Shown here in pieces: positions 5,266 through 19,345 of a DNA stretch of 39,482 bases. Made by a program: the position numbers and the translations under genes. Under the pieces are notes generated by a model that was not told the DNA's origin, searched no databases, and saw only the letters and a program-made list of their open reading frames with translations. Position 1 is the stretch's first letter. Each line of letters begins with the position of its first letter. Source of the stretch: Candidatus Eiseniibacteriota bacterium (lineage in GTDB: Bacteria; Joyebacterota; Joyebacteria; Joyebacterales; Joyebacteraceae); NCBI GenBank assembly GCA_030609365.1, contig JAUWCJ010000010.1, forward strand, positions 1-39,482. The letters are read 5' to 3'.

Positions 5266-6087
5266 ATGAAGAGGTTCGCTAGCATTGCCGCAGTCGTCGT
5301 GCTGCTGGTCGTGTTCGCCTCGACGGCGATGGGCGCCGTCGGCTGGTGCGGCAACATCTGGCCGAACAACGGCGTGAGCTACACGTCGAACGACGACATC
5401 GACACCTACGTCCAGGTCTGGAAGGACGGCGTCACGAATGAAGTGGGTCAGGGCGCGGACATCGAGGCGTACCTGTACTACAAGTGCGACACGGACGTCG
5501 ACTTCACCGAAGTCGCGATGACGTACCACGGCGACGTCGGTGACAATGATGAGTACACGGGTCAGATTCCCGCCGGCCACGGCTGCACCACGGTCGAGTA
5601 CTACATCAAGGTCGTCGACACCACCGACATGGCCGAGTGCTACGGGACGGATCAGGCTGGCAACGCGCCGAACTTCTTCCTGCCGATCACTGCGGTGACG
5701 TCGCAGGACGTTCTCGTCACCTTCCAGATCTGCATCCCGGAAGGCTCGGCGGGTGACGTCTGCGTGACTGGCAGCGACCCGGCCATCACGAATTGGAGCC
5801 AGCCCGGCATCCTGATGGCGCAGCCTTGCCCGGCGCAGAGCCCCAACCTCTACGACATCACCGTGACATTCCTGGCCGGCGCGAACCCCTACGTTCAGTA
5901 CAAGTATCAGAAGGACGACTGTACTGCGTGGGACTGCGATCCGAACCATGAGTTCGTGATCGATGATTCCGGTCCGATGCAAACCCTTCCGCTGGACACG
6001 TGGTGCTGGGGCACGCCTGACTGCCCGGCCTGCGGGAGCCCGGTCGGGGAGTCGAGCTGGGGCACCGTCAAGGCGCTCTACAGGTGA
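5266..6087 (+). CDS. Secreted protein with CBM20-like module and W-G-x-V-K tail
   Basis: A 273-residue exported protein of unknown exact role. Residues 1-23 form a clear signal peptide. Residues 24-141 form a beta-rich domain with N-D-E-Y-T-G-x-I-P-A and V-E-Y-Y-I-K-V-V-D, like immunoglobulin-fold carbohydrate-associated domains. Residues 146-248 resemble a CBM20 starch-binding module: V-x-V-T-F start, V-C-V-T-G-S-D-P-x-x-x-x-W core, V-Q-Y-K-Y and acidic aspartates. There are about a dozen cysteines. The last residues (S-W-G-T-V-K-A-L-Y-R) match the ends of the next two secreted proteins. No catalytic domain is seen. A strong promoter, a structured leader and a hairpin terminator make it a single-gene unit, probably highly expressed. 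The CBM20 assignment is by motif pattern only. Confidence 0.7.
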   Translation: MKRFASIAAVVVLLVVFASTAMGAVGWCGNIWPNNGVSYTSNDDIDTYVQVWKDGVTNEVGQGADIEAYLYYKCDTDVDFTEVAMTYHGDVGDNDEYTGQIPAGHGCTTVEYYIKVVDTTDMAECYGTDQAGNAPNFFLPITAVTSQDVLVTFQICIPEGSAGDVCVTGSDPAITNWSQPGILMAQPCPAQSPNLYDITVTFLAGANPYVQYKYQKDDCTAWDCDPNHEFVIDDSGPMQTLPLDTWCWGTPDCPACGSPVGESSWGTVKALYR

Positions 6088-6583: not shown

Positions 6584-7594
6584 ATGAGACTCATTGCAGC
6601 GATAGTGATCGCGCTTGTGATCCCGGCCTACGTACTTGCGGGCCCGAGCATCGTCGGCAGCATGCAGGGCTGGGACCCCGCGGATCCGGCCTACGATCTT
6701 GCGATCAACGGCAACGGCGTCTACGTGCTGACGACGAGCCTGCTCGCCGGCTTCTACGAGTACAAGGTTACGGAGACCGACGCCTGGGACGGCAATGACT
6801 GGCCCGGCACGAACCAGAGCTTCACGCTTGCGGCCGATGACGACGTCACGTGGTTCGTCAACCTGGGTGCCACGGCCGGCGTGAAGGAGGGCGACGAGTA
6901 CGTCTTCCACAGCATGAATCCCCCGATTGTCGTGGGCGACATGCAGAGCGAGCTCGGCGGCAGCGACTGGGACCCGTGCGACACGGTCAACAGTGTGATG
7001 TCCGACCCCGACCTCGACGACGTCTGGGAGTTCACGGCCGTCATAGCGCCCGAGGGCGACTACCAGTGCAAGATCGCGCTGAACAACAACTGGGATCAGA
7101 GCACGGGTGACAACGTGTCGTTCCACTCCGACGGCGTGACCCCCGTCACCTTCACGTACGACATGTCGAACAACACGACGACCATCTCGTCGCAGGTCGT
7201 GACGCAGCAGGACGTGCTCGTCACGTTCACCATGTGCCTGCCTGACAGCGTCGATAGCTTCTTCGATGTGTGCGTGACGGGCAGCCATCCGTCGCTGACG
7301 AACTGGGGCTTCGGCATCGTGATGGGCCAGCCCTGCCCCGATATCCAGCCGAAGCTCTGGTCGGTCGACGTGCTGTTCCCGGCGGGGAGCGACCCGTTCG
7401 TCGAGTACAAGTACAAGAAGGACGACTGTCAGACGTGGGAGAGCACGTGGAACCACAGCTTCGACATCGACGACTCGGCGCCGACGCAGGTACTGGCAGC
7501 TGATGTCTGGGAGTACCTGGGGACCGAGTGCCCGTCCTGCACGAGCCCCGTTGAGGACTCGAGCTGGGGCACCATCAAGTCGATATACAGGTAG
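6584..7594 (+). CDS. Secreted protein with two X25-like modules, a CBM20-like module and W-G-x-I-K tail
   Basis: A 336-residue exported protein. The signal peptide is residues 1-19. Residues 20-100 and 113-203 are two beta-sandwich repeats with the pattern of pullulanase X25-type modules: G-S/D-M-Q at the start, W-D-P, then a G-x-Y-x-x-K segment. Residues 208-312 form a CBM20-like module (V-L-V-T-F, V-C-V-T-G-S-H-P, V-E-Y-K-Y-K-K-D). It closely parallels the C-terminal half of the protein at 5266, including the cysteine and D-D-C-x-x-W positions. The chain ends S-S-W-G-T-I-K-S-I-Y-R. No enzyme domain is present, so a binding or surface role (alpha-glucan or other glycan) is inferred. The next gene, 101 nt downstream, is a paralogue probably on the same transcript. 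Confidence 0.72.
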   Translation: MRLIAAIVIALVIPAYVLAGPSIVGSMQGWDPADPAYDLAINGNGVYVLTTSLLAGFYEYKVTETDAWDGNDWPGTNQSFTLAADDDVTWFVNLGATAGVKEGDEYVFHSMNPPIVVGDMQSELGGSDWDPCDTVNSVMSDPDLDDVWEFTAVIAPEGDYQCKIALNNNWDQSTGDNVSFHSDGVTPVTFTYDMSNNTTTISSQVVTQQDVLVTFTMCLPDSVDSFFDVCVTGSHPSLTNWGFGIVMGQPCPDIQPKLWSVDVLFPAGSDPFVEYKYKKDDCQTWESTWNHSFDIDDSAPTQVLAADVWEYLGTECPSCTSPVEDSSWGTIKSIYR

Positions 7595-16458: not shown

Positions 16459-19053
16459 ATGTCCAACGCACACGACAAGAAGGTCGTCGACAGTTCGTCT
16501 GTCGATGAGGGAGTGGCCGCGTCCGACAGTACTCTCGAGAGAGCGCTTCGCGAGAGGCAGACGGACATCGAAGTGGACGACGCGAGCGCGCCGGTCGAGG
16601 TGAATCTCGACGAGGCGATCATGGTCGACGAAGGGACGGACGCGCCCGGACACGCGGGACGACTGAAGCTGTTCATGGACGAGGACGAACTGCTCGGACT
16701 TCACCGTCGACTCGCGAGCAAACTCTTCCGTCTGGTCAGGAAGAGAAGCGGCAAGATCGTCCAGTTCGATCGCAAGAAGATCACGACGGCGATCTTCAAG
16801 GCCGCCGAAGAAGTAGGAGGGAAGGACCGTGAGACAGCCGAGCGGCTCACGGACGAGGTCCTGTTGTATCTCTACTCCGAGCAGGGCGATAACCTCCCTG
16901 AGGTAGAGGAGATACAGGACGCCATTGAGAAGATCCTGGTCGAGCGCGGGCACGCCAGGACCGCGAAAGCCTTCATTCTCTATAGAGACCGCCGACACCA
17001 GGTTCGTCGCAAGAAGAACACACCGGATCTCGCCGGACTGGAGAAGACGCGACCGGCGAAGATGTTCGACGCGACCGACATTGCGGTCTTCGTTCGCACG
17101 TCGAGCGACGACATGATCGTGTGGGATCGCGAGAGGATCATTGAGACTCTCATCAGGGAAACGCAGCTCGACGTCACGACAGCCGAGAAGATCAGTCGCG
17201 AGGTCGAAGCCCAGATCGTCCTCAGCAACATCAGGGTCATCACCGCTCCGCTCGTTCGCGAGATGGTCGACGCCAAACTCGTCGAGCATGGACTCGAGTC
17301 GGCGCGGCGCAAGCACACGCGACTCGGTGTTCCTCTGTACGATGCCGAGCGCATCATCCTCACTCCGAACAAAGAGAACGCGAACATTCCGCACAACCCC
17401 GAAGCGACGAACATGACTCTCGCGGAATCGATAAAGAAGCAGTACGCGCTGCTCGAGATATTCAGTCAGGACATCGCCGACGCGCACGCGCGCGGCGATA
17501 TCCACCTGCACGACCTCGGCTTCATCGACCGGCCGTACTGCTCGGGCCAGTCACTCGAGTATGTGAAGAAGTTCGGGCTCTCCCTTCCGAACGCGCTCTC
17601 TATCGCGAAGCCGGCCAAGCACCCCGAGATACTGCTCGCCCACATGGTGAAGTTCTCCGCGGCGCTCCAGGGCCACTTCGCCGGGGCCATCGGATGGGAC
17701 GCGGTCAACCTCTTCTTCGCGCCGTACCTCGAGGGGCTCTCTGATCGCAGAGTACATCAGCTGGCCGAGATGCTGATCTTCGAGTACTCGCAGCAGAGCG
17801 TGGCGCGCGGGGGGCAGGCCATCTTCAGCGATATCAATATCTACTGGGAGACGCCGAAGCACTTCAGGGGCGTCGCGGCCATTGGTCCTGGTGGGAAACC
17901 GACCGGGCGCACCTACGATGACTACCGAGATGACGCCCAGCGCTTCGCGATGGCGCTGTTCGACGTCTACAAGGAGGGAGACGGCACAGGAAGGCCGTTC
18001 TTCTTCCCGAAGCCGCTCGTCCATATTACCGACGAGTTCTTCAGGACGCCCGGCCACGAGGAGTTCCTGCTCCACATCAGCGACGTCGCGGCTGACAAGG
18101 GCAACACGTACTTCGTGTTCGACCGGGGCGAGACGGCAAAGATCTCGGAGTGCTGCCGCCTGTCATTCAAGCTCGAGCAGTCGGATCTCGACGACGCGAA
18201 GGAGCCGTGGAAGATGCGCTACTCCGCGCTCCAGAACGTCACGCTGAACATGCCGAGGGCCGCCTACTACGCCCAGGGAGATGACGACAAGCTTTTCGCG
18301 AAGCTCGACGACTTCATGGCGCTCGCCGTTCACGCGCACGAGCAGAAGAAGGAGCTGATCGAGAAGCTGCTGGCAATGGGTGAGAGCGGTCCGCTGGCGC
18401 TGTTGACGATGGCGCCGGACGGTCAGGGATATCTGCGGATGCACCGCGTGACGTACCTCATCGGTCTGCTCGGTCTCAACGAGCTCGTGCAGAGCCACAC
18501 GGGCCAAGAGCTTCATGAGTCGGAAGAAGCGTTCAGGCTCGGGCTCAAGGTCATCGCGCATCTCAAGCTCGTGTGCGACAGGGCGTCGAAGGAGGTGGGG
18601 ATGCGGTTTGTCCTCGAGCAGACGCCCGCCGAGTCCGCTGCATACCGGCTGGCGAGGCTCGACCTCGAGCACTTCCCCGAGGATGCGGAGAAGGTCGTCA
18701 AGGGCAACCCGGACATCGGAGAGGTGTACTACACGAACTCGACCTTCCTCAATGTCGCGCACGCGCTGAACCCGATCGAGCGCGTCAAGAAGGAGGGCAT
18801 GTTCCACGATATGATCGAGGCGGGGGCGCTGTCGCACGTATGGATAGCGGACACGAGGCCTTCGGCTCAGGCGGTCGCCAGCTTCGTCACGAAGACCTTC
18901 AAGCACACGAGAAACGCGCAGATCGCGTTCTCGCCGGAGTTCACGACCTGCAACGTCTGCATGAAGGTCACCAGGGGGCTCGTCGATACCTGCCCCTATT
19001 GCAGCGCCAACGTGATCGACGGCATCGAGAGCGTCACCACGGAATCCAAGTAG
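16459..19053 (+). CDS. nrdD: Anaerobic (class III-type) ribonucleoside-triphosphate reductase lacking the glycyl-radical motif
   Basis: An 864-residue reductase of the NrdD family, which makes deoxynucleotides from NTPs. An acidic, probably disordered N-terminus (1-85) precedes two ATP-cone-like regulatory domains (about 93-185 and 205-300). The catalytic barrel follows: H-L-H-D-L-G-F (349-355), the Y-C-S-G cysteine (C361), and the C565-C566-R-L finger loop holding the thiyl cysteine. N-V-T-L-N-M-P-R comes next. The C-terminal zinc site is intact (C831, C834, C845, C848). The protein then stops 16 residues later, exactly where family members have the R-V-x-G-Y glycyl-radical loop. No G-Y codon pair exists in any forward frame near the end. 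It is either inactive alone, complemented by another subunit, or an unusual variant. No NrdG activase gene is in the window. The start codon choice (weak GAGAGGA, spaced 14 nt) is uncertain. Confidence 0.88.
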   Translation: MSNAHDKKVVDSSSVDEGVAASDSTLERALRERQTDIEVDDASAPVEVNLDEAIMVDEGTDAPGHAGRLKLFMDEDELLGLHRRLASKLFRLVRKRSGKIVQFDRKKITTAIFKAAEEVGGKDRETAERLTDEVLLYLYSEQGDNLPEVEEIQDAIEKILVERGHARTAKAFILYRDRRHQVRRKKNTPDLAGLEKTRPAKMFDATDIAVFVRTSSDDMIVWDRERIIETLIRETQLDVTTAEKISREVEAQIVLSNIRVITAPLVREMVDAKLVEHGLESARRKHTRLGVPLYDAERIILTPNKENANIPHNPEATNMTLAESIKKQYALLEIFSQDIADAHARGDIHLHDLGFIDRPYCSGQSLEYVKKFGLSLPNALSIAKPAKHPEILLAHMVKFSAALQGHFAGAIGWDAVNLFFAPYLEGLSDRRVHQLAEMLIFEYSQQSVARGGQAIFSDINIYWETPKHFRGVAAIGPGGKPTGRTYDDYRDDAQRFAMALFDVYKEGDGTGRPFFFPKPLVHITDEFFRTPGHEEFLLHISDVAADKGNTYFVFDRGETAKISECCRLSFKLEQSDLDDAKEPWKMRYSALQNVTLNMPRAAYYAQGDDDKLFAKLDDFMALAVHAHEQKKELIEKLLAMGESGPLALLTMAPDGQGYLRMHRVTYLIGLLGLNELVQSHTGQELHESEEAFRLGLKVIAHLKLVCDRASKEVGMRFVLEQTPAESAAYRLARLDLEHFPEDAEKVVKGNPDIGEVYYTNSTFLNVAHALNPIERVKKEGMFHDMIEAGALSHVWIADTRPSAQAVASFVTKTFKHTRNAQIAFSPEFTTCNVCMKVTRGLVDTCPYCSANVIDGIESVTTESK

Positions 19054-19075
19054 CACTCTTCAGGAGCGGCATCGA

Positions 19076-19345
19076 ATGAATCTCGTTTTCTACGTGAAGG
19101 AAGACTGCGACGCGTGCAAGAACGCGAAGGAGAAGATCTCCTTCTTCCTCGATAAGTGGGGCGCGGCTGATTCGGTTGTTACCGAGGCCATCAATCTGGA
19201 CACGGAGGACGGGCTCGTTGAGGCGGCGATGAACGGTGTTGCCGACGTGCCCACGATAATCCTTCATCATGAGGGCAGCGAGGTGGCCAGGTGGACCAAG
19301 AAGGCACCCCCGTCTGAGGAGCTAAGGGCCAAGCTGAGCCTCTAG
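19076..19345 (+). CDS. Small glutaredoxin/thioredoxin-like redoxin
   Basis: An 89-residue thioredoxin-fold protein with the redox motif C11-D-A-C14 after an N-L-V-F-Y-V strand and the cis-proline segment D-V-P-T-I-I-L. It resembles glutaredoxin/NrdH-type redoxins rather than full thioredoxins. It starts 22 nt after nrdD with AGGAG 10 nt upstream and is closed by a hairpin, so the two genes form one unit. Some class III reductases are known to take electrons from a thioredoxin/redoxin rather than formate; this protein is the natural candidate here (inference). Confidence 0.85.
   Translation: MNLVFYVKEDCDACKNAKEKISFFLDKWGAADSVVTEAINLDTEDGLVEAAMNGVADVPTIILHHEGSEVARWTKKAPPSEELRAKLSL

Follow-up and report, generated by a model that had tools for sequence, protein, structure and literature searches.

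The window analyzed here, i.e., the whole stretch of 39,482 nucleotides at positions 1 to 39,482 of contig JAUWCJ010000010.1 (assembly GCA_030609365.1, Candidatus Eiseniibacteriota bacterium), contains on its plus strand an nrdD gene (16459-19053) for the large chain of a class III ribonucleotide reductase. The chain of 864 amino acids, which lacks the glycyl-radical tail, was identified in the list of open reading frames (ORFs) and by two protein families, Pfam NRDD and NCBIfam TIGR02487 (NrdD). The latter gave 370 bits (cut-off 326) over profile positions 1-558 of 581. Two stretches of the chain matched the Pfam ATP-cone (85 bits), the best of them comprising residues 92-180 (16732-16998). 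The catalytic barrel and the zinc finger (17374-19023) correspond to profile positions 1-535 of NRDD, which matched residues 306-855 with 427 bits. All cysteines named in a preliminary description of the window were found at their places: the catalytic cysteine C361 in RPYCSGQS (codon 17539-17541), the finger-loop cysteines C565/C566 in SECCRL (18151-18156) and the zinc finger C831-x2-C834 ... C845-x2-C848 (18949-19002), whose cysteine codons begin at 18949, 18958, 18991 and 19000. The catalytic, finger-loop and zinc cysteines are conserved across relatives, the catalytic and zinc ones being retained in every correctly aligned relative.

Since the NRDD match stops at profile position 535 of 562, the missing part of the protein is exactly the radical-glycine tail. 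The RVxGY site, which an NrdD should carry in the same chain, is absent. As already noted in the preliminary description, the last residue (K864) is located 16 residues past C848; beyond the stop, no Gly-Tyr pair was found in the same frame. A DNA alignment of the nrdD 3' ends of 14 genomes revealed AAG-TAG (19048-19053) in place of the radical Gly-Tyr codons, AAG (19048-19050) being aligned with the Gly codon and TAG (19051-19053) with the Tyr codon of relatives that keep the tail. Slightly downstream, at 19059-19079 of the plus strand, a short sequence (TTCAGGAGCGGCATCGAATGA, the former FRSGIE-stop) matches the end of the tail of genome G007, compared to which about 49 nucleotides before this relic have been deleted. 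The persistence of the relic after the stop implies that the tail was formerly present. The alignment indicates that its loss involved a stop at the Tyr codon, an altered Gly codon and a later deletion. A simple frameshift, which had been doubted from the beginning, was rejected on the basis of the same alignment as the cause of the short protein, and so was readthrough. Judged by its sequence, the protein is an NrdD by ancestry and a split NrdD by constitution. The old TGA of the relic shares bases with the start codon of the gene that follows (19076-19345, plus strand). Its product, a small protein of 89 amino acids with a CDAC motif, resembles thioredoxin/glutaredoxin and is the likely reductant partner, as suggested by weak, below-cut-off Pfam matches (Glrx-like/thioredoxin) and by the gene context. 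A thioredoxin-like gene is also situated 3' of nrdD in relatives.

Only one more match to Pfam NRDD was detected in the assembly, a draft of 206 contigs that is approximately 97% complete. This match (C189:32232-32339, minus strand) is above the curated cut-off and covers profile positions 526-560 only. It forms the end of an ORF of 93 amino acids (C189:32220-32498, minus strand; MKMEELKSWIDTQDGWDYQLDDKGIVIRNDRFETLTHATFAAVDTNTLEAITASCSQGKDVDHITRVTGYFSRTSGWNKGKTGELKDRHRTTV) with a ribosome-binding-site-like AAGGAGG upstream and an intact NrdD-type glycyl-radical domain (HITRVTGYFSRTSGWNKGKTGELKDRHR) at the C-terminus of the product. The preliminary description had proposed to look in the genome for such a small stand-alone domain and for nrdG, and both exist. 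Its remark that no nrdG lies nearby is true of the window, yet an NrdG2 gene is present elsewhere, at C102:25939-26517 (194 bits, cut-off 131). Barrel, radical loop and activase thus sit on three contigs. The class I/II reductases that it had also proposed to look for were not found: searches of the genome for a class I/II large subunit and for a class I small subunit gave no hit. Like GrcA/YfiD, the 93-amino-acid protein (RVTGYFSRTSGW) is small, stands alone and has a glycyl-radical domain at its end, but this domain is not of the pyruvate formate-lyase (PFL) type (Gly_radical, PF01228), NRDD being its sole Pfam match above the cut-off. A PFL-type GrcA was rejected as a candidate since no PF01228 domain was found across the genome. 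The stand-alone gene comes after the gene of a DUF1858/hybrid-cluster-associated redox disulfide protein (L002 1817-2035, minus strand). In several genera, a near-palindrome, TCACACCGGGGTGA or a close variant of it, lies about 20 bases 5' of the ribosome-binding site of the stand-alone gene (L037-L040, L042, L044, L047; at about 1785-1800 in L002) and may be an operator. As a promoter motif shared with nrdD it was rejected, because its occurrence upstream of the window nrdD does not exceed chance.

The stand-alone protein is composed of a conserved N-terminal domain of approximately 57 residues followed by the intact glycyl-radical loop and tail. For the N-terminal domain, AlphaFold predicted an alpha-beta-beta-beta-alpha arrangement (residues 3-57) with a predicted local distance difference test score (pLDDT) of about 82-87 over the first 50 residues. 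A fold search of the PDB with the model gave no confident match (best E 0.7), a sequence search of the PDB gave none, and in PHROGs no family spans the N-terminal domain, while the radical tail yielded only weak matches to NrdD families. Across 12 sequences, no variation was seen in the residues surrounding the glycine, and the invariant positions cluster in TRVTGYFS..SGWN.GK..EL.DRH.

To place the window among its relatives, 20 genomes of the phylum were compared, which belong to one family and eight genera. The stand-alone domain was also found in 16 of the 18 genomes having an NrdD match. The cis glycine is lost in 13 of 17 family members with a readable nrdD 3' end, by differing lesions, and 12 of these 13 possess the stand-alone domain. 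An intact radical tail is found in G004, G016, G017 and G019, while in G002 and G003 the glycine has been changed to Asp in an otherwise whole tail. In G010, the Asp is followed by a stop further on. All other Gly-less members (G001, G006, G007, G011-G015, G018 and the window genome, G000) have a stop on the tyrosine codon, preceded by Ser in G018, by Ala in G001, by Lys or Thr in genus g5 and by Lys or Glu in G000, G006 and G007, the three genomes with a relic of the tail. In frame behind the TAG of G006 and G007, the former tail can still be read (PSKVPGLNGGFRGELKDRFRSGIE-stop in G007). In most of the Gly-less genes, TAC/TAT has become TAG/TAA (TGA in G001), so that the chain stops precisely at the glycine column. 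Intermediate states have been preserved as well: a spare part besides an intact glycine, the change of Gly to Asp, a stop with a relic and a clean truncation.

When the tree was restricted to the cones and barrel of NrdD, the family members without the glycine did not group together as one clade, and a single origin of the loss was rejected by the approximately unbiased (AU) test (p 2.8e-64). Well-supported branches force at least three changes; the best tree requires about six, including that of G285, a genome of another phylum. Within the family, about five losses of the cis glycine can be estimated from the sequences, and the differing lesions agree with independent losses. For the NrdD core, truncated pairs of the same genus have a ratio of nonsynonymous to synonymous substitutions (dN/dS) of 0.035-0.11, which is not above that of intact pairs (0.12-0.20). 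For the stand-alone gene, most pairs gave 0.07-0.14, and two others 0.32 and 0.39. Due to these low values, both genes must be regarded as maintained under purifying selection.

Three kinds of loci show that radical domains in trans also occur outside this lineage. In the 100% complete genome G285, nrdD is truncated, and a gene 1.7 kb downstream of it codes for a clear homologue of the stand-alone protein; a thioredoxin-like gene comes immediately after. In G161, which belongs to another phylum as well, a truncated NrdD is immediately followed by a different small ORF with a radical domain. In at least 15 genomes, the radical loop of a Thermotoga-like NrdD is encoded by a small ORF of its own (CEVYSRVVGYLRPV), as scored by regular expression with 15 cases resolved among 26 loci examined (L053-L060, L062, L067, L068, L106, L111, L113, L115). 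Here, the small ORF is mostly located between nrdD and nrdG; in G180 (L059), a ThyX-like ORF stands between nrdD and the radical-domain ORF. Phages possess such proteins, too. The phage contigs L051, L052, L071-L073 and L077-L083 encode an NrdD-type stand-alone protein of about 100 amino acids with the same architecture, the neighbours of its gene including terminase and endolysin. No other NRDD match was detected on the 11 phage contigs searched, which may be fragments. In a tree of weak resolution, the protein of L051 falls within the group of Eisenbacteria proteins. A tblastn search of the INPHARED phages with four stand-alone queries gave no match.

From the observed gene content, conservation, lesions, repeated loss and parallels it is very probable that the glycyl radical of the window enzyme is supplied in trans and that we are dealing with a two-protein class III ribonucleotide reductase. 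A radical from a separate subunit, as in GrcA/YfiD, was among the readings of the preliminary description and is the one that the stand-alone domain with its conserved N-terminal domain, together with NrdG2, supports. The window chain would be the catalytic part, consisting of ATP-cones, a ten-stranded barrel with the thiyl cysteines and the zinc finger. We infer that the loop of the small protein docks into the open barrel of NrdD and that NrdG2 generates the glycyl radical on the small protein, from where it would move to the finger-loop cysteine of NrdD. The thioredoxin-like protein encoded downstream of nrdD may renew the active-site thiols. That the small protein restores its Gly-less partner is suggested by their co-occurrence.

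Several points weigh against a radical supplied in trans. In G018, a genome that is 57% complete, neither a cis glycine nor a stand-alone copy was found. G017 still has the cis glycine, and the sole stand-alone copy that it contains is divergent. The radical tail of the AlphaFold model is poorly ordered and of low confidence, so that docking cannot be demonstrated by it, though the tail may be expected to become ordered only inside the barrel. The trans arrangement is deduced from sequences and a predicted fold of the small protein, and in a draft of this kind a second reductase might have gone unseen. As to the divergent copy in G017 (L091 1501-1815, on the short contig C214), it resembles the domain adjoining nrdD in G161, and the ORFs in its neighborhood look phage-like.

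Alternatively, nrdD might be a decaying pseudogene in a cell relying on another ribonucleotide reductase. A degenerate enzyme had been considered in the preliminary description, and the loss of the radical residue and the relic state of the tail region are in line with it. It fits poorly, however, with a core under purifying selection that has kept its catalytic and zinc cysteines, in a genome in which no other reductase was found, and is strongly disfavoured as a very unlikely explanation. Even less can be said for another residue of NrdD as the radical carrier, with the small protein as a mere accessory. Non-glycyl aminoacyl radical enzymes are known among the PFL-like enzymes (PMC11528403), but the glycine column of the Gly-less relatives is occupied by K, E, S, A, D or T and thus contains no conserved substitute, while the trans protein has conserved the glycine loop in full. 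About equally improbable is another role of the stand-alone protein, such as the repair of a different glycyl radical enzyme or regulation, so that it would not serve the window NrdD. Its gene is indeed unlinked to nrdD and adjoins that of the hybrid-cluster-associated DUF1858 protein. Yet its radical domain matches NrdD models in a genome devoid of the PFL type, and in G285 the homologue stands close to a truncated nrdD and a thioredoxin-like gene.

That the assembly or the sequencing is at fault, or that a 3' segment is missing, has hardly any probability left. The assembly is a draft, and the 49 nucleotides missing relative to G007 might be taken as a sign of it, but 12 other genomes have lost the glycine too, by differing lesions; the gene next to nrdD is intact, and the stand-alone domain is present. 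Recoding or readthrough of the stop, by which the glycine loop would be made in cis, is practically negligible: although the sequence behind the TAG of G006 and G007 is an in-frame relic, the Gly-Tyr pair is missing from every relic that follows a stop, and in the window this stretch has undergone deletion and lies out of frame.

A protein that supplies the radical in trans, best read as a GrcA/YfiD-like spare part of a class III reductase turned into an obligatory radical subunit, also suggests a course of events. The small protein may at first have served as a spare for an NrdD that kept its own glycine; with the small protein in place, the cis glycine would have been lost repeatedly. Oxygen cuts PFL at the radical glycine (PMC8683613), and the truncated NrdDs are encoded much like such a cut product, a likeness that we draw by analogy to an oxygen-cut glycyl radical enzyme. 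It seems reasonably probable, though clearly less so than the trans radical itself, that a family of spare parts for class III reductases, common to phages and bacteria, exists and was recruited as the obligatory radical subunit, followed by about five parallel glycine losses in one bacterial family, mostly through a stop at the adjacent Tyr codon, so that the enzyme is now encoded in its oxygen-cut state.

Apart from the reductase, two window ORFs (5266-6087 and 6584-7594) end in a similar tail, (S/T)WGxIKxLYR followed by an apparent stop (6055-6087 and 7562-7594). Codons for this tail were found at 21 places in the genome, while the reversed pattern matched nowhere. The tail is a candidate for a C-terminal sorting signal of secreted proteins.

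The data make a strong genomic case for a spare-part radical protein of ribonucleotide reductase, an enzyme that DNA synthesis cannot do without. They predict a strategy by which phages keep the anaerobic reductase of their host working, and they offer a class III reductase whose radical part can be detached from the barrel, so that the two may be mixed and measured. The authors of the GrcA/YfiD study stated that the two spare parts of PFL are the only validated ones, and they speculated about further ones for other glycyl radical enzymes (PMC8683613). Like the PFL spare parts GrcA/YfiD of E. coli and Y06I of phage T4 (PMC8683613), the proteins described here have bacterial and phage forms, the phage-borne Y06I being paralleled by the NrdD-type proteins of the phage contigs. 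They differ in the NrdD type of their radical domain and in the N-terminal domain, which is predicted to be folded. Moreover, the partner NrdD has permanently lost its own glycine and therefore the small protein would be obligatory rather than a means of repair, unlike GrcA/YfiD. With the class III NrdDs of T4, Prevotella copri and Thermotoga maritima, the window enzyme has in common the barrel, finger-loop cysteines, zinc finger, ATP-cones and an NrdG activase; what separates it from them is that the radical glycine belongs to a second polypeptide, the gene of which lies on a different contig. In the open-licence papers searched, we found no report on split class III reductases and no description of the Thermotoga-like split NrdD. 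The latter likewise has its radical glycine on a separate ORF, but this ORF is adjacent to nrdD and contains a short leader instead of the N-terminal domain of 57 residues. Aminoacyl radical enzymes (PMC11528403) are also relatives of glycyl radical enzymes without the glycine; theirs, however, is a different residue in cis, and no trans domain is involved. The split class II reductase NrdJa/NrdJb of Pseudomonas aeruginosa (PMC4520616) similarly has C-terminal domains on a second chain. By contrast to the window enzyme, it is cobalamin-dependent and its second chain bears no glycyl radical.
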